From Thermodesulfovibrio sp. 3462-1 (GTDB taxonomy: Bacteria; Nitrospirota; Thermodesulfovibrionia; Thermodesulfovibrionales; Thermodesulfovibrionaceae), in NCBI RefSeq assembly GCF_040451425.1, contig NZ_CP144374.1, forward strand, positions 682,001 through 746,000: a DNA stretch of 64,000 nucleotides, in the 5' to 3' direction. Below, piece after piece: positions 30,543-38,187 of this stretch (position 1 is the first letter of the stretch; each line of letters opens with the position of its first letter). The position numbers and the translations under genes are program-made. The notes under the pieces are model-generated. The model had not been told where the DNA came from and made no database searches. It saw nothing but the letters and a program-made list of their open reading frames with translations.

Positions 30543-31567
30543 GCATTACATATAAACAGGCTGGTGTTGATATTAATGAAGCAGACAAATTTATAAAAAT
30601 GATTTCTCCTCTGGTGAAGACAACTTTCCGGAAAGAGGTTCTTACTGATATAGGGCTTTTTGCAGGATTATTTAGGCTGGACATGAAAAAATACAGACAA
30701 CCAGTGCTTGTCAGTGGCACAGATGGAGTTGGGACAAAGCTTAAAATTGCCTTTGAAGCAAACAGACATGATACAGTTGGAATAGACCTTGTTGCCATGT
30801 GTGTGAATGATATTTTAACATTAGGTGCAGAGCCTTTATTTTTTCTTGATTATTTTGCTGTAGGTAAGCTTAATGCTGAAAGAGCAACTCAGGTCATAAA
30901 AGGCATTGTTGAAGGATGCAGACAGGCAGGTTGTGCTCTCATAGGAGGAGAGACAGCTGAGATGCCAGGATTTTATAAAAAAAATGAATATGATCTCTCA
31001 GGTTTTGCTGTTGGAGTAGTGAATAAAGGTGAAATTATTGATGGAACAGAAATAAAAGAGGGAGATTCAATAATAGGTGTTGCTTCTTCAGGACTTCACA
31101 GCAATGGCTTTTCTCTTGTAAGAAAAGTTCTTTTTGATAGAGCAAAAATGAAAATTGATCAATATGTTGCAGAGCTGGGTTGCAGTCTTGCTGATGAATT
31201 ACTGAAGCCAACAAAAATTTATGTTAAAGCCTATTTTGCTCTTAAGGGAAGGGTTAAAGTTAAAGGCATGGCACATATAACAGGTGGTGGAATTCCTGGA
31301 AATCTGCCAAGAATTTTTCCTGAAAATAAAACTGCTGTGATATATAAAAATCAATGGCATATTCATCCAGTATTTCAGCTTATTCAGACAGCAGGAAAAG
31401 TTAAAGAATCAGAGATGTTTAAAGTTTTCAATATGGGAATAGGCTATGTTTTTATCATTGACAGTAAAGATGTGAAAAAGGCATTGAATATTTTAAATAA
31501 AAAAGGATACAGAGCTTATTTAATCGGTGAAGTAATCAAAGGTAAAGGAAAAATCAAAATAGAATGA
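30539..31567 (+). CDS. purM: Phosphoribosylformylglycinamidine cyclo-ligase
   Basis: PurM makes aminoimidazole ribotide, step five of purine synthesis. The 342-residue ATP-dependent enzyme has YKQAGVDINEAD at its start, VSGTDGVGTKLKIAFE, the signature CVNDILTLGAEPLFFLDYFA and GGETAEMPGFY, and in the C-terminal half MAHITGGGIPGNLPR. ATGA overlap with nadC and a 4-bp overlap with the kinase gene indicate translational coupling. Confidence 0.97.
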   Translation: MSITYKQAGVDINEADKFIKMISPLVKTTFRKEVLTDIGLFAGLFRLDMKKYRQPVLVSGTDGVGTKLKIAFEANRHDTVGIDLVAMCVNDILTLGAEPLFFLDYFAVGKLNAERATQVIKGIVEGCRQAGCALIGGETAEMPGFYKKNEYDLSGFAVGVVNKGEIIDGTEIKEGDSIIGVASSGLHSNGFSLVRKVLFDRAKMKIDQYVAELGCSLADELLKPTKIYVKAYFALKGRVKVKGMAHITGGGIPGNLPRIFPENKTAVIYKNQWHIHPVFQLIQTAGKVKESEMFKVFNMGIGYVFIIDSKDVKKALNILNKKGYRAYLIGEVIKGKGKIKIE

Positions 31568-32727
31568 AGATATTTCATAGAGAAATCCAATTAAGAGAAG
31601 TTTTTTTTAAATTTATAGATTCCTATTCAGAGCCGTTAGTTCTCTTTGATCCTGAAAGAATAGATATAATCTACCTGAATCAGTCTGCAAGAGATTTTTT
31701 AGGTGAACATTCAGATTTGTCGGAATTTTTTGAAGAACAGGAGTATAGAAATTTTATAAAATTAATTCATGATTGCCATAGAATAGAAGAGCAAAGGGTT
31801 ATAAGTTATAGAAAACATGATGGCAGTAAAGGAGTTTTGCTTTTCAGTTTATATCCAGTGATGTGGGAGGACCAGAGGGTTGTGTTTTTTAAATTTAATG
31901 ACATAACGGCAAAGATAAAGAAAAAGGAAGCAAAGAAAAGAAGAAATGCTCAATTGATACTGAAGGATAAACTAAAATCAATTGATTTGGTTACCTCAAG
32001 CATATCACACGAAATAAACAACATATGTAATTTTATGGTTAATAATCTCAGAATTACATTGCATACTTGGCATGATGTTTTTAAGCTTATTAAAGAATAT
32101 GAGAGCGAAAATGGTGAATTTTTATTGGGAGGAATTTCTTCTAAGGAAGTTGATAAAATTGTTCCAAGACTTATGCTGTCAATTATGGAAGGTATAACAA
32201 GAATTTCAGATACAATTGATGACTTCAGAAAATACATTAAAGAAGGTTTAAAATCTGAATATTCAATTATTGATGTAAATGAAGTGATAAAGAGAGTAGT
32301 AACAATACTCAATCATCATATTTTTATGCATACTGAAAATTTTAATCTTAATCTCCACGAAGAATTGCCAAAAATAAGAGGTAATACGCAAAAGCTTGAG
32401 CAGGTTATAATAAATCTGTTAATGAATGCCTTACAGGCATTGCCAGATAGAGGAAGAGGAATTTTCCTATCCACAGGGATAAAAGGAGACAAGATATATA
32501 TTGAAATCAGAGATGAAGGTATTGGAATTTCTAAGGATATAATGCCTTATATTTTTGAACCATTTTTTTCAACAAAATATGCATCAGGTGGCTCTGGGCT
32601 TGGACTTTATCTTTCAAAGTCTATTATAGAAGAGCTTGGCGGAGAAATCACCATCAAATCAGAAGAAAGCAAAGGTACGCAAATAATTATTTATCTGCCT
32701 TGTTATGACAGAGATGGAAAATTTTAA
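31564..32727 (+). CDS. Soluble PAS-domain sensor histidine kinase
   Basis: No membrane helix is visible, so the sensor is cytoplasmic. Residues 15-120 resemble a PAS domain (DSYSEPLVLFDPERIDIIYL). The HisKA box carries the phosphorylated histidine in SSISHEINNICNF (about 142-154). The ATPase domain has the N box (LLMNALQALP), G1 (RDEGIGIS), F box (IFEPFFSTK) and G2 (GSGLGLYLSK). It overlaps the response regulator by 23 bp, and the two likely form an NtrB/NtrC-like pair. The formate dehydrogenase genes just downstream are the natural target, by inference. Confidence 0.9.
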   Translation: MKIFHREIQLREVFFKFIDSYSEPLVLFDPERIDIIYLNQSARDFLGEHSDLSEFFEEQEYRNFIKLIHDCHRIEEQRVISYRKHDGSKGVLLFSLYPVMWEDQRVVFFKFNDITAKIKKKEAKKRRNAQLILKDKLKSIDLVTSSISHEINNICNFMVNNLRITLHTWHDVFKLIKEYESENGEFLLGGISSKEVDKIVPRLMLSIMEGITRISDTIDDFRKYIKEGLKSEYSIIDVNEVIKRVVTILNHHIFMHTENFNLNLHEELPKIRGNTQKLEQVIINLLMNALQALPDRGRGIFLSTGIKGDKIYIEIRDEGIGISKDIMPYIFEPFFSTKYASGGSGLGLYLSKSIIEELGGEITIKSEESKGTQIIIYLPCYDRDGKF

Positions 32728-34123
32728 TTATTCTGTTGCAATAATAGATGATGAAAGGGAGTCTTTATATACCTATTCGTTAATTCTGAAACAGTCGGGA
32801 ATTAATGATGTTGTTTTGATTGAGGATCCACGGGAACTTCCTGTTGTTCTAAAAGAAAGATCATTCTCTATTTTACTCCTTGACCTTTCAATGCCCCATA
32901 TCTCAGGTTTTGAACTTTTAAAATACTTATCACTGGAATATCCAGAAATTCCTGTAATTATATTAACAGCAATAAAAGACATAGAAACAGCTGTTGAGTG
33001 CATAAAAATAGGTGCTTCAGATTATCTGGTAAAGCCTGTTGAAAAAAATAAGCTGATTTCATCAATAAAAAAAGCACTGGAAATGAATCGTCTGAAAGAG
33101 GAAATTTTAGGATTAAAACACCGATTAATAGAAGATAAACTTGAATATGAAGAGGCTTTTTCAGAAATTATTACTGTAAATCAGAAAATGAGAGGTATTT
33201 TTAAATACATAGAAGTAATATCCAAAACAGAGCAACCTGTTTTAATAACAGGTGAAACAGGTACAGGAAAGGAACTTGTAGCAAGGGCAATTCATAAAAT
33301 AAGTGGCAGGAAAGGTGAGTTTGTGGCAGTAAATGTTGCAGGGCTTGATGATACAATGTTTTCTGATACTTTGTTCGGTCATAGGAAAGGAGCATTCACA
33401 GGAGCAATATCCAACAGAGAAGGAATGATTTCAAGGGCAAGAGGTGGAACTCTTTTTCTTGATGAGATTGGAGATTTGTCTGAAGCCTCTCAACTCAAGC
33501 TTTTAAGAGTTATTCAGGAAAGAGTTTATTATCCTCTTGGTTCCGATATTGCAAAAAGCACTGATGCAAGAATTATAGTTGCAACAAATCAGGATATACA
33601 TGATATGGTTAACAAAGGAGCCTTCCGAAAGGATCTATTTTACCGACTCAAAGCACATCATGTTCATCTTCCTCCTTTAAGAGAGAGAAAGGATGACATA
33701 CCTGTTTTGCTTGACCATTTTATTGAAGAATCTGCAAAGGAACTGGGAAAGAAACCACCTAAATATCCAGAAGAATTAATAATTCTTTTAACAAATTACT
33801 CTTTTCCAGGCAATATAAGAGAGCTTAAAATGATAGTCTATGATGCAGTTGCTCGGTGTAAATCCTCTATTTTATCATTGGAAGTCTTCAAAGAGATGAT
33901 AGACATAAGCAATTCCATTGATAAAGAGCTTAAAAATGAGATAGTAAAATTTTATATACAAATGAGATTTCCCGATAAACTTCCCACATTAAAGGAGATG
34001 GAAGAACTACTTATCAATGAAGCATTAAGAAGAGCCAAAGGAAATCAGGGAATTGCAGCTTCAATGCTTGGTATAACAAGGCAGGCATTGAATAAAAGAT
34101 TGAATAAATTGCATAAAAAATAA
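32705..34123 (+). CDS. NtrC-family sigma-54-dependent response regulator
   Basis: A 472-residue activator in three parts. The receiver (about 8-120) has the phosphoacceptor Asp in LLLDLSMPHISGF and lysine in LVKPVEKN. The AAA+ domain (about 155-390) has Walker A GETGTGKE, the sigma-54-contacting GAFTGA loop and Walker B GGTLFLDEIGDL. The Fis-type helix-turn-helix is at the end (GNQGIAASMLGITRQALNKR). A second start, nine bases later (ATG at 32714), is possible. The intact GAFTGA implies it activates sigma-54 promoters; one candidate lies 93 bp downstream. Confidence 0.94.
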   Translation: MTEMENFNYSVAIIDDERESLYTYSLILKQSGINDVVLIEDPRELPVVLKERSFSILLLDLSMPHISGFELLKYLSLEYPEIPVIILTAIKDIETAVECIKIGASDYLVKPVEKNKLISSIKKALEMNRLKEEILGLKHRLIEDKLEYEEAFSEIITVNQKMRGIFKYIEVISKTEQPVLITGETGTGKELVARAIHKISGRKGEFVAVNVAGLDDTMFSDTLFGHRKGAFTGAISNREGMISRARGGTLFLDEIGDLSEASQLKLLRVIQERVYYPLGSDIAKSTDARIIVATNQDIHDMVNKGAFRKDLFYRLKAHHVHLPPLRERKDDIPVLLDHFIEESAKELGKKPPKYPEELIILLTNYSFPGNIRELKMIVYDAVARCKSSILSLEVFKEMIDISNSIDKELKNEIVKFYIQMRFPDKLPTLKEMEELLINEALRRAKGNQGIAASMLGITRQALNKRLNKLHKK

Positions 34124-34158
34124 CCCCCTGAAAAAATTTTTTATAAATCATCTTTTTA

Positions 34159-34172
34159 GCAACTATAGTTGC
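34159..34172. promoter_or_regulatory. Perfect 14-bp palindrome, possible activator site or weak terminator
   Basis: GCAACTATAGTTGC is a perfect palindrome located 36 bp after the response-regulator stop and about 44 bp upstream of the candidate sigma-54 promoter. It could be a binding site for the adjacent NtrC-like protein. Alternatively, its five-base-pair stem followed by ACCCTTTTTATTT could be a weak terminator for the valS-to-regulator operon. The sequence cannot decide. Confidence 0.4.
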
Positions 34173-34215
34173 ACCCTTTTTATTTAAAAGTCTCTGAATT
34201 ATTTAGAAATTTTAT

Positions 34216-34232
34216 TTGGCATATAGATTGTT
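34216..34232 (+). promoter_or_regulatory. Candidate sigma-54 (-24/-12) promoter of formate dehydrogenase
   Basis: TTGGCA (34216-34221), six bases, then TTGTT (34228-34232) matches the YTGGCACGrNNNTTGCW consensus except at three positions (C to T, G to A and the C of the -12 GC). The -24 GG is intact. Transcription would start near 34242, leaving a leader of about 128 bases. A sigma-54 activator gene lies immediately upstream, which strengthens the call. Confidence 0.5.
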
Positions 34233-34250
34233 AATAAAGTAATTAGATGA

Positions 34251-34336
34251 ACCGATTAACTTTTCCATACAGCCCCCTGATAAGTTTAATCGGTGGACAG
34301 GAGAAGTACTTGAGGTATGAAAACTCAAGGCTTCTC
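34251..34336 (+). ncRNA. Structured 5' leader of formate dehydrogenase mRNA
   Basis: Two long hairpins in tandem. The first pairs 34251-34262 with 34282-34294 (12 bp with one bulged base) around a 19-base loop containing CAGCCCCCTG. The second pairs GAGAAG (34301-34306) plus CTTGAG (34309-34314) with CTCAAG (34324-34329) plus CTTCTC (34331-34336), and is followed by a moderately U-rich stretch. CCTG in the first loop can pair with CAGG at 34298-34301, which would tie the two together. It could be a metal, cofactor or selenium-responsive leader or an attenuator. I do not recognise its class. Confidence 0.5.
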
Positions 34337-34370
34337 TCTTTATTATTAAAAAAATTAAGGAGGAGGTTAT

Positions 34371-37300
34371 ATGGAACTTACCAGACGAAGTTTTCTGAAA
34401 ATCTCCACAGGTGCCCTGCTTCTTAGCTCACTGGGGCTTAATCTTGAGCCTGCAAAAGCCTATGCAGCAGAGCTAAGAACAAAGGGCGCAAAGGAGATAA
34501 CCCACATTTGTCCTTACTGTGGTTTTGGCTGCGGAGTAATTGCTTATGTAAAAGAAGGTAAGGTTCAGAGCATAGCAGGTGATCCTGATAATCCTCAAAA
34601 TGAAGGTTCTCTTTGTCCAAAAGGTGCAGCACTTTATAAACTTGTGAATAATCCTAATAGAATAACCGAGCCAATGTATCGTGCACCTGGAGCAACAGAG
34701 TGGAAAAAAATCAGTTGGGAAGAGGCGTTAAACAGAATAGCACGGCTTGTGAAAAAAACAAGAGATAAGTATTTCATTACAAAAAATTCAAAGGGCCAGG
34801 TAGTAAACAGAGTTGATGCAATTGCTCATGTTGGCTCAGCAGCCTTAGAAAATGAAGAATGCTATCTTCTTCAAAAATTAATGCGTTCATGGGGGCTTGT
34901 CTATATCGAACATCAAGCGCGTATATGACACTCCCCTACTGTAGCGGCTCTGGCAGAGTCGTTTGGTAGAGGGGCAATGACAAATCATTGGATTGATTTC
35001 AGAAATGCAGATGTAATACTTAACATGGGTGGTAACACTGCTGAATGCCATCCAATGTCAATGAAGTGGATAATGAAGGCAAAGGAACAAAGAGGAGCTA
35101 AGCTTATTGTTGTTGATCCTCGTTTTACGAGAACAGCCTCAAAGGCAGACCTTTATGTTCCAATTCGTCCAGGAACAGACATAGTATTTATTGGTGGATT
35201 AATAAAATACATAATTGATAACAATCTTTACTTCAAGGATTATGTAATAAACTACACTGATGCATCATTCCTTGTTGATCCTAACTTTAAGACTGCTGAA
35301 GACCTTGATGGAGTATTTTCAGGATATGATGAGAAAAAGAGAGCCTATGATAAATCAACATGGAAATATCAGCTTGATGAAAATGGAATTCCAAAGAAAG
35401 ACCCAACACTTCAGGATCCTCATTGTGTATTTCAACTACTTAAAAAACAATACTCAAGATACACTATAGATACAGTATCAAATATTACGGGAGCACCAAA
35501 GGATAAAATTGAAGAAGCTTATAAAATTATTGGTTCAACAGGAAAGCCTGATAAAACATGTGTTTCCTCTTATGCAATGGGATGGACTCAACATACAATT
35601 GGCACTCAAAACATTAGAGCTTTTTCAATTGTTCAGCTACTTCTTGGAAATATAGGAGTAGCTGGCGGAGGAATTAATGCACAAAGAGGTGAACCCAATG
35701 TTCAAGGTTCTACTGACCATGCTCTTCTTTTCCATATACTGCCTGGTTATAATCCTACACCTGTTGCCTCTGATGTTGATTTAAAGACATACATTGAAAA
35801 ATACACACCAAAGACAAAGGAGCCAAAGAGTGTTAATTGGTGGTCAAACAGACCAAAATATATTATCAGCTATCTTAAAGAGCTTTATGGAGAAAGAGCA
35901 ACTAAAGACAATGATTTTTGTTATAGCTACCTGCCAAAGAGAGATGATAATCAAAACTGCTCATGGTTAGTGCTATTTGACGAAATGTATAAGGGAAACA
36001 TTAAAGGATTCTTTGCATGGGGGCAGAATCCTGCATGCGGATCTGCAAATGCAGGAAAAGTAAGAGAGGCTCTTGGAAAGCTTGAATGGCTTGTATGTGT
36101 AAATCTATGGGATACTGAGACTTCATCATTCTGGCGCGGTCCTGGAATGGATCCAAAGAAAATTAAAACAGAAGTATTTTTACTACCTGCAGCATCATCC
36201 CTTGAAAAAGAAGGAAGCAGAACCAATTCAAGTAGACTTGCTCAGTGGCTGTATCAAGCAGTAAAACCAATTGGTAAATGCAAACCAGATGAGGAGATAA
36301 TAAATGAACTTTACTGGAGAGTAAAGAAACTTTACGAAAAAGAAAAAGGAGCCTTCCCTGATCCAATAATTTATCTTACATGGGATTATGGAGAAAAAGA
36401 CAAAAGCGGCAAAGTAAAACATATTGATATTCATAAAGTTGCAAAGGCAATAAATGGATACTTTACAGAAGATGTGCCAGAGCATCCAATAGACAAAAAA
36501 TCATATAAAAAAGGTCAGCAAGTTCCGTCATTTGTATATTTGCTTGCTGATGGTAGGACTGCTTGTGGTAACTGGATATACTCGGGTAGTTACACAGATG
36601 CTGGCAACATGATGGCAAGAAGAGGGAAAGAAGATCCAACAGGACTGGGGCTTTATCCAAATTGGGCATGGTGCTGGCCTGTAAACAGAAGAATACTTTA
36701 CAATCGTGCAAGTGTTGATCCACAGGGTAATCCATGGGATCCAAAGAGAGCAGTTATAAAATGGGATCCTGTTAACAAGAAATGGATAGGCGATGTTCCT
36801 GATGGACCGGCACCACCACTTGCAATGGAAGGAGGAAAACTTCCATTCATAATGAAGCCATCAGGAGTTGGAACAATATTTGGGGCAGGACTTGCAGATG
36901 GACCATTCCCGACACATTATGAGCCTTTAGAGTGTCCATTTATGGAGAATCCTCTTTATAAAAAGACAAGAATCAATCCTACGATAAAAATATTTGGAAC
37001 AAAAGCTGATGTTTTTGTTTATTGTGATTCAAGATATCCCTATGTCGGAACAACCTATAGAGTAACAGAGCATTGGCAGACTGGAGCAATGACAAGACAT
37101 CAAGACTGGTTAATGGAACTTGAACCCCAGATATTTGCAGAAATAGATCCTGTGCTTGCTAAAGAAAAAGGAATAAAAAGTGGAGACAAAGTAATAGTTT
37201 CATCTCCAAGAGGAAAAATCTGGGCAATCGCGATTGTTACTCCAAGACTTCAACCATTTAAGGTGATGGGTCAGACTATTCATATTGTAGGAATTCCATG

Positions 37301-37433
37301 GCATTATGGATGGAGATTTCCAAAAGATGGTTCTGGTGGTGATAGTGCAAATCTTCTTACTCCAACAGTAGGTGATGCAAATACCATGATACCTGAGACA
37401 AAGGCATTCATGGTAAACATAGAAAAGGCATAG
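34371..37433 (+). CDS. fdhA: Selenocysteine-containing formate dehydrogenase, catalytic subunit (exported)
   Basis: The gene is one frame of 1020 residues interrupted by an in-frame TGA at 34926-34928, read as selenocysteine (QARI-U-HSPTV) as in FdnG-type enzymes. The N-terminal twin-arginine signal RRSFLK (residues 5-10) directs folded export. The [4Fe-4S] motif CPYCGFGC and CPKG come next, then the molybdopterin-binding domains and a C-terminal guanine-dinucleotide domain (about 880-1010). It oxidises formate with a Mo or W bis-pterin cofactor. An AGGAGGAGG site precedes the ATG. The beta subunit follows; no cytochrome b subunit is present. Confidence 0.96.
34926..34974 (+). other. Selenocysteine UGA codon and bacterial SECIS hairpin
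   Basis: The recoded TGA (34926-34928) is followed by CCCCTAC (34933-34939) pairing with GTAGAGGGG (34966-34974, two bases bulged). An inner CTCT/AGAG stem holds a small G-rich apical loop near 34950. The distance from UGA to the apical loop, about 22 to 25 bases, fits a bacterial SECIS element recognised by SelB. The coding meaning downstream continues the FdnG-like sequence without a break. Confidence 0.88.
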
Positions 37434-37443
37434 GAGGTTGAAC

Positions 37444-38187
37444 ATGGCACGCAAAGCATTATTAATAACACCTGATATATGCATAGGATGTAGAGCCTGT
37501 CAGATTGCATGTAAGGACTGGAATCAACTTCCTGCAACAAAGACAAAAAATAGAGGAACCCATGAAAACCCACCTGATCTTGATGAAAATAATTTCAATA
37601 GAATTCGTTTTATTGAGAATACTGATTCAAAGACAGTTCGCTGGCTCTTTGTAAGCCAGCGGTGTATGCATTGTGGTGAGCCTGCCTGTGTTCAGATATG
37701 TCCGGTGGGTGCACTTCAGAAAGACAAAGAAACAGGCATTGTTTACTATGACAAAAACAAATGCATAGCCTGTCATGCCTGTCGTTCAGCCTGTCCTTTT
37801 GATATTCCAAGATATGATCAAGGTGGAAAAGGCAAAATTGCAAAGTGTCACATGTGTATTGATAGAGTTCGTGCTGGACTTACACCTGCATGTGCAAGAA
37901 CCTGCCCAACAGGAGCAATAAAATTTGGAGACAGAGATGCATTGATTAAAGAAGCAAAGTCAAAGGGATTCAAACTCTATGGAGAGACAGATCTTGGAGG
38001 ATTAGGAGTTGTGTATGCACTTAAGGATTCACCAAAGGTTTACAGGCTTGCTGAAAATCCTCGTATATCCGAGTCTGTCGCATTCTGGGGCTCTGTGTTA
38101 AGAACACTTGTTGGAAGAAGTGGTTCAACAACTTCATCCTTCATAAGATATCTCACTCAGAAAACTAAAGAAGAAGTGAAGAAATAA
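37444..38187 (+). CDS. fdhB: Formate dehydrogenase iron-sulfur (beta) subunit
   Basis: A ferredoxin-like electron-transfer subunit with four [4Fe-4S] motifs: CIGCRACQIACKDWN (about 14-28), CMHCGEPACVQICP, CIACHACRSACP and CHMC...CARTCP. The ATG at 37444 is chosen because the in-frame TTG six bases earlier touches the AGGAGG directly. No C-terminal membrane helix like that of E. coli FdnH is visible, so it is probably a soluble periplasmic subunit exported together with the Tat-signal-bearing catalytic subunit. Electrons would then pass to a periplasmic cytochrome c. It is 248 residues long at most and ends before a terminator. Confidence 0.95.
   Translation: MARKALLITPDICIGCRACQIACKDWNQLPATKTKNRGTHENPPDLDENNFNRIRFIENTDSKTVRWLFVSQRCMHCGEPACVQICPVGALQKDKETGIVYYDKNKCIACHACRSACPFDIPRYDQGGKGKIAKCHMCIDRVRAGLTPACARTCPTGAIKFGDRDALIKEAKSKGFKLYGETDLGGLGVVYALKDSPKVYRLAENPRISESVAFWGSVLRTLVGRSGSTTSSFIRYLTQKTKEEVKK

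Follow-up and report, generated by a model that had tools for sequence, protein, structure and literature searches.

The 5′ leader of the selenoprotein formate dehydrogenase operon fdhAB in Thermodesulfovibrio appears, with moderate confidence, to be a cis-acting conditional terminator specific to this genus. A conserved sigma-54 promoter is followed by a conserved hairpin (H1) and then by a covarying terminator hairpin (H2), the H1 loop is complementary to sites farther downstream, and the arrangement is linked to fdhA genes for the selenocysteine (Sec) enzyme. The window that we analyzed is a stretch of 64,000 nucleotides, bases 682001 to 746000 of a complete 1.82-Mb Thermodesulfovibrio genome; coordinates given here are positions in that window unless another record is named, and the genes and leader parts lie on the + strand.

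The fdhA gene (34371 to 37433), encoding the formate dehydrogenase alpha subunit, matched TIGR01553 at 1428 bits, above the cutoff, and its product has a Tat-type N terminus. An in-frame UGA (Sec) codon is found at 34926 to 34928 (codon 186), and UGA186 was present in all 13 orthologues examined; the source genome also carries tRNA-Sec. A SECIS-like hairpin at the UGA (34923 to 34981) scored 31.8 bits with the Rfam SECIS_3 model, below the gathering score of 63; because this is half of the cutoff, SECIS elements of this group may escape current models. The next gene, fdhB (37438 to 38187), encodes the 4Fe-4S beta subunit (Fer4_11, 1.9e-31; the top NCBIfam match, FDH-beta, was below its cutoff) and, judged from the ORF layout, is the final gene of the operon, being followed by a convergent gene. 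Thermodesulfovibrio sp. N1, which is among the 14 strains that bear the leader element, has a single periplasmic FdhAB and grows slowly on formate plus acetate (PMC5165239).

The element was found in 14 of 16 congeners, including 11/11 near-complete genomes and every genome that yielded the gene, always as a single copy directly upstream of Sec-fdhA; the two congeners without it are represented by assemblies that are 66% and 72% complete. Outside the genus, the full covariance model gave nothing convincing in 396 genomes of the phylum, where a lone 26-bit match covered the terminator half only. A model of H1 likewise gave no convincing copy in 177 genomes of the order, its weak matches lying inside coding sequence or comprising a partial motif. 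A pattern scan for H1 across 84,980 species returned 94 stretches; those that scored as the element were all from Thermodesulfovibrio-type records. The large sets were screened with fast filters, which could have missed diverged copies. One Nitrospirales metagenome-assembled genome carries a palindromic repeat (CCGATTAAAAAT..CCCCC..TTAATCGGGGGTCGGG; L105, 6203 to 6238; L120, 3293 to 3327; L164, 6091 to 6135) that looks like a miniature mobile repeat mimicking H1. In Pseudomonas genomes, the intergenic region that separates an acetyl-CoA synthetase-like gene from a gene for a small secreted protein contains a conserved hairpin whose loop is C5-6 (CGATTAAC...GCCCCC...GTTAATCG; L093, 6798 to 6839; also L078, L082, L094, L095, L118, and L129), followed by a GC-rich hairpin; it is structured but probably unrelated to the fdhA leader. 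One congener (G009) encodes, in addition to the Sec enzyme, an intact paralogue in which ARICHSS replaces ARI-Sec-HS (L168, from 3024; G009:C40), possibly a selenium-independent backup. The region upstream of this Cys paralogue is unrelated and lacks the element, but it is the sole intact paralogue seen, too few for a rule; in G013, the Cys paralogue persists only as a remnant (start of L169).

A two-component pair is encoded immediately upstream of the leader. Its first gene (31564 to 32727) encodes a PAS-domain histidine kinase (Pfam HATPase_c, 1.3e-24; PAS_9, 6e-6, just under the cutoff), and the second (32705 to 34123) encodes an NtrC-type response regulator with the Pfam domains Response_reg, Sigma54_activat, and HTH_8 (Fis HTH). 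An orthologue of the regulator lies immediately upstream in 13/13 loci tested, with 79 to 93% identity in 12 relatives, and it is the probable activator of the fdh promoter. That promoter, a −24/−12 element (TGGCATATAGATTGTT, 34217 to 34232), has the form GG-N10-TTG with fixed spacing in 14/14 genomes and stands 15 to 20 nt (mostly 16) upstream of an invariant AUGA (34247 to 34250, 14/14) that immediately precedes H1; GGYA-N6-TTG occurs in 0.75% of random 60-bp windows. The source genome encodes an RpoN DNA-binding domain. An inverted repeat, GCAA-N5/6-TTGCAYCC (34159 to 34176), is located 41 to 44 bp upstream of the −24 element in all 14 genomes, with T for G in three, and is probably the activator-binding site. 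Directly 3′ of the regulator gene, CCCTGAAA-AATTTTTT (34124 to 34148) is kept in most congeners; it may be a weak terminator or another site for the activator.

With a transcription start predicted 12 nt after the −12 base, the fdhA mRNA would have a 128-nt leader (34243 to 34370), in agreement with the length that an earlier sequence-only reading of this DNA derived from a sigma-54 start. That reading also described a structured leader with two hairpins and named covariation in orthologous leaders as a check; the sigma-54 promoter, the structured leader, and the covariation were all borne out. Folded as one RNA, the 131-nt leader of the source copy was moderately more stable than shuffled sequences (z = −1.9). 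This single-copy signal is suggestive, so conservation was tested, and it is the comparative evidence that establishes a structured leader: each hairpin is kept in 14 congeners, RNAalifold recovered the same two hairpins with no structure supplied, and covariation was found, mainly in H2.

H1 (34251 to 34294), the near-invariant candidate sensor domain, pairs 34251 to 34262 with 34282 to 34294. Its position and its 12 bp with one bulge, a U (34285), fit the earlier description, and its folding energy of −11.4 kcal/mol was equaled by 0/300 dinucleotide shuffles. Mean pairwise identity over 34246 to 34294 is 0.88, compared with 0.48 at fourfold sites of fdhA; it is 0.58 in the spacer upstream of the promoter and 0.55 from the −12 element to the start. 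Pairing is kept in 97% of H1 pair cells, and compensatory changes occur at one pair, H1 being too invariant to yield much covariation. The loop (UUCCAUACAGCCCCCU, 34263 to 34278) has the consensus UUYCAUACAGCCCCCU, in which CCCCC is invariant. The invariant AUGA contains an AUG (34247), and the frame that begins there meets no stop for at least 33 codons in 14/14 genomes, so the region could be read as encoding a leader peptide on which ribosome stalling chooses between H1 and H2. Conservation by codon position is 0.91 at position 3, 0.91 at position 1, and 0.81 at position 2, a pattern opposite to that of fdhA (0.58 at position 3); moreover, 79% of single-base codon differences alter the residue, a run of control codons is absent, and the predicted 5′ end is only ~4 nt away from the AUG, which leaves no room for a Shine-Dalgarno sequence. 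We found no coding-like conservation, and since third positions vary no more than the other two, we rejected ribosome-mediated attenuation as very improbable.

H2 (34301 to 34336), the intrinsic terminator stem, has 7 + 6 bp, a single bulged A (34308), and a loop of 9 nt in the source copy, close to the 6 + 6 bp described earlier but with the bulged A in place of a small internal loop. Its energy of −18.1 kcal/mol was equaled by 0/300 shuffles. Across the genomes, 7 of 14 pairs show compensatory changes and 95% of pair cells are kept. The covariation score was 0.248, versus 0.148 for shuffles, with 0/500 shuffles reaching 0.248; the alignment was fitted to the structure, and an unfitted alignment gave a nearly equal result. 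When the H2 partners were slid out of register, pairing fell from 96% to no more than 60%. H2 is followed by a U-rich tract (UCUUUAUUAUU, 34337 to 34348) that is interrupted in the source copy and is U4 to U7 in most relatives. Using the d-score for intrinsic terminators, we obtained positive values for H2 plus U-tract in 12/14 genomes and negative values in G008 and in the source copy, whose score (−23) is the lowest of the 14 because its U-tract is broken. The suggestion of an attenuator-like second hairpin with a U-rich tail is thus supported by the family, although the tail of the copy in which it was made is poor. A simpler account is that H2 merely terminates the upstream regulator operon, with H1 a DNA-level or mRNA stability element and no alternative folding. 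H2 does lie ~180 bp past the stop of the regulator gene, and H1 is an inverted repeat. However, a conserved promoter sits between the regulator and H2, which places H2 inside the fdh leader as a terminator hairpin with a U-tract between promoter and gene, and a dimer binding site fails to explain the invariant H1 loop. We regard this account as improbable.

The conditional-terminator reading draws on two alternative partners of the H1 loop. The first is a G-run at the 5′ foot of H2 (CAGGAG, 34298 to 34303; CAGGGG in several relatives), the proposed partner in a pseudoknot. The loop C5 and the downstream G-run are complementary in all 14 genomes, with 4 bp in the source copy and 5 to 8 bp in most relatives. 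Loop CCTG (34276 to 34279) and CAGG (34298 to 34301), which had been noted as possible partners with CAGG just before the second hairpin, both exist, but the last base of CAGG already belongs to H2. Their pairing is possible but not clearly stronger than in controls whose linkers were shuffled with composition kept: the loop:G-run mean was −11.2 kcal/mol, versus −8.9 kcal/mol with shuffled linkers, 22% of controls did at least as well, and no compensatory change was seen. Engaging the G-run in a pseudoknot would cost the H2 fold 9 to 17 kcal/mol, which makes the pseudoknot and H2 mutually exclusive. The second partner, overlooked in the sequence-only reading, is the translation start of fdhA, where the Shine-Dalgarno sequence AAGGAGGAGG, the start codon, and codon 2 occupy 34357 to 34376. 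Between the H1 loop and 34361 to 34376, 14 bp can form, interrupted by C-A mismatches at two positions; pairing with UAUGGAR gives 7 contiguous pairs in 14/14 genomes (G-U allowed), and the total reaches 14 bp in many. Compared with helices formed by shuffled loops, this one showed a mild advantage (mean z = −1.8, with none in G007; single-sequence fractions, 0.01 to 0.4). The two loop pairings exclude each other. Neither convincingly beats its composition controls, and we therefore keep the pseudoknot and the covering of the Shine-Dalgarno sequence as inferred steps.

A model that joins these features would run as follows. The NtrC-type regulator would activate sigma-54 polymerase, and transcription would begin just 5′ of H1. 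By default, H2 would form and transcription would stop ahead of fdhA. A signal that stabilizes H1 would allow the CCCCC loop to grip GGGG at the foot of H2 in an H-type pseudoknot, which would stop H2 from closing beside the U-tract and so permit read-through into fdhA. In a transcript that escapes with the G-run locked in H2, the freed loop may cover the Shine-Dalgarno sequence and start codon, a putative second brake at the level of translation. The polarity of the switch, like the antitermination role of the pseudoknot, is as the model would have it.

H1 may be read by a small molecule or a protein, and selenium, the Mo/W cofactor, and formate are candidate triggers. A conserved aptamer-like domain, the near-invariant H1 and its loop, does stand before the expression platform H2. 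An Rfam scan of the leader, at the gathering score and at E values up to 10, gave zero matches, in keeping with the earlier reading, in which the leader could be assigned to no known riboswitch class. No SECIS model matched 34243 to 34370, SECIS_3 matching solely at the UGA inside fdhA, and the Moco and SECIS readings of the leader were dropped for want of a model match. The leader is best read as a candidate for an orphan riboswitch or a protein-binding element, and its signal is not readable from sequence. The more specific proposal, a new Thermodesulfovibrio riboswitch class that senses selenium status, Mo/W cofactor, or formate and uses its C-rich loop alternately as antiterminator and anti-Shine-Dalgarno sequence to gate a selenoprotein operon, is speculative and rather unlikely. 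Within the conditional-terminator reading, as a subcase and not an addition to it, H1 could instead be bound by a protein, either an antiterminator or a regulator of translation, with no direct binding of a small molecule. An invariant loop and AUGA with scant covariation suit protein recognition, as do a single site per genome and confinement to the genus, but no candidate RNA-binding regulator is encoded beside fdh, and sequence does not distinguish a protein from a ligand; we hold this version as possible but doubtful.

In the main rival reading, the stretch that runs from the sigma-54 start through H2 encodes a small RNA (~95 nt) that acts in trans. The NtrC-type regulator would drive its synthesis, its C-rich H1 loop would serve as a seed against ribosome-binding sites, and fdhA would be reached through read-through or a separate promoter. 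Qrr small RNAs, which are driven by sigma-54 and LuxO, offer a likeness: an NtrC-type regulator beside a sigma-54 promoter, an RNA of ~95 nt, and a Rho-independent terminator. Here too, a sigma-54 promoter and a terminator, strong in most genomes, enclose a compact RNA with an invariant stem-loop, the H1 loop is anti-Shine-Dalgarno-like, and the regulator gene adjoins. Unlike Qrr, the fdhA leader has no Rfam match, keeps fdhA as its constant downstream partner, and gave only generic matches resembling ribosome-binding sites as possible targets. The element always lies directly 5′ of fdhA and never elsewhere, and a second promoter at fdhA is not evident, with only chance-level sites. The seed complement is enriched in the genomes, but this is expected for any anti-ribosome-binding-site sequence; no specific shared target emerged in 5 genomes (gene context was read for part of the matches), and the sole perfect extra seed match (G012) falls inside a transporter gene. 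We consider a small RNA unlikely.

Fluoride and preQ1-I riboswitches are H-type pseudoknots that compete with a terminator, and SAM-II is of the pseudoknot type. The fdhA leader resembles these in having a hairpin loop able to pair just downstream, overlapping the expression platform; it differs in having no Rfam match, an unrelated sequence, a pseudoknot that is only proposed, and one operon in one genus. Confinement to one operon per genome and to one genus also sets it apart from most riboswitch classes. It shares with the Moco riboswitch (Rfam Moco_RNA_motif) a place in the 5′ leader and an association with Mo/W enzymes, but it is far smaller and has no match at gathering or at E values up to 10. 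SECIS elements and the SECIS-like hairpin of the Escherichia coli selAB leader also link a hairpin to selenoprotein expression, whereas in fdhA a separate SECIS-like hairpin sits at the UGA codon itself and neither H1 nor H2 matches a SECIS model. In the literature, we found no RNA switch gating a selenoprotein formate dehydrogenase, no formate dehydrogenase riboswitch, and no such Thermodesulfovibrio leader.

Throughout the genus, then, a sigma-54 promoter and a selenoprotein gene are separated by a small element that occurs once per genome, is highly conserved, and can be tested by mutation and probing. The element bears on how sulfate reducers match a costly Mo/W-Se enzyme to supply. If a ligand binds the element, it would represent a new sensor class; if a protein or small RNA acts instead, an RNA layer would be added atop the two-component system.
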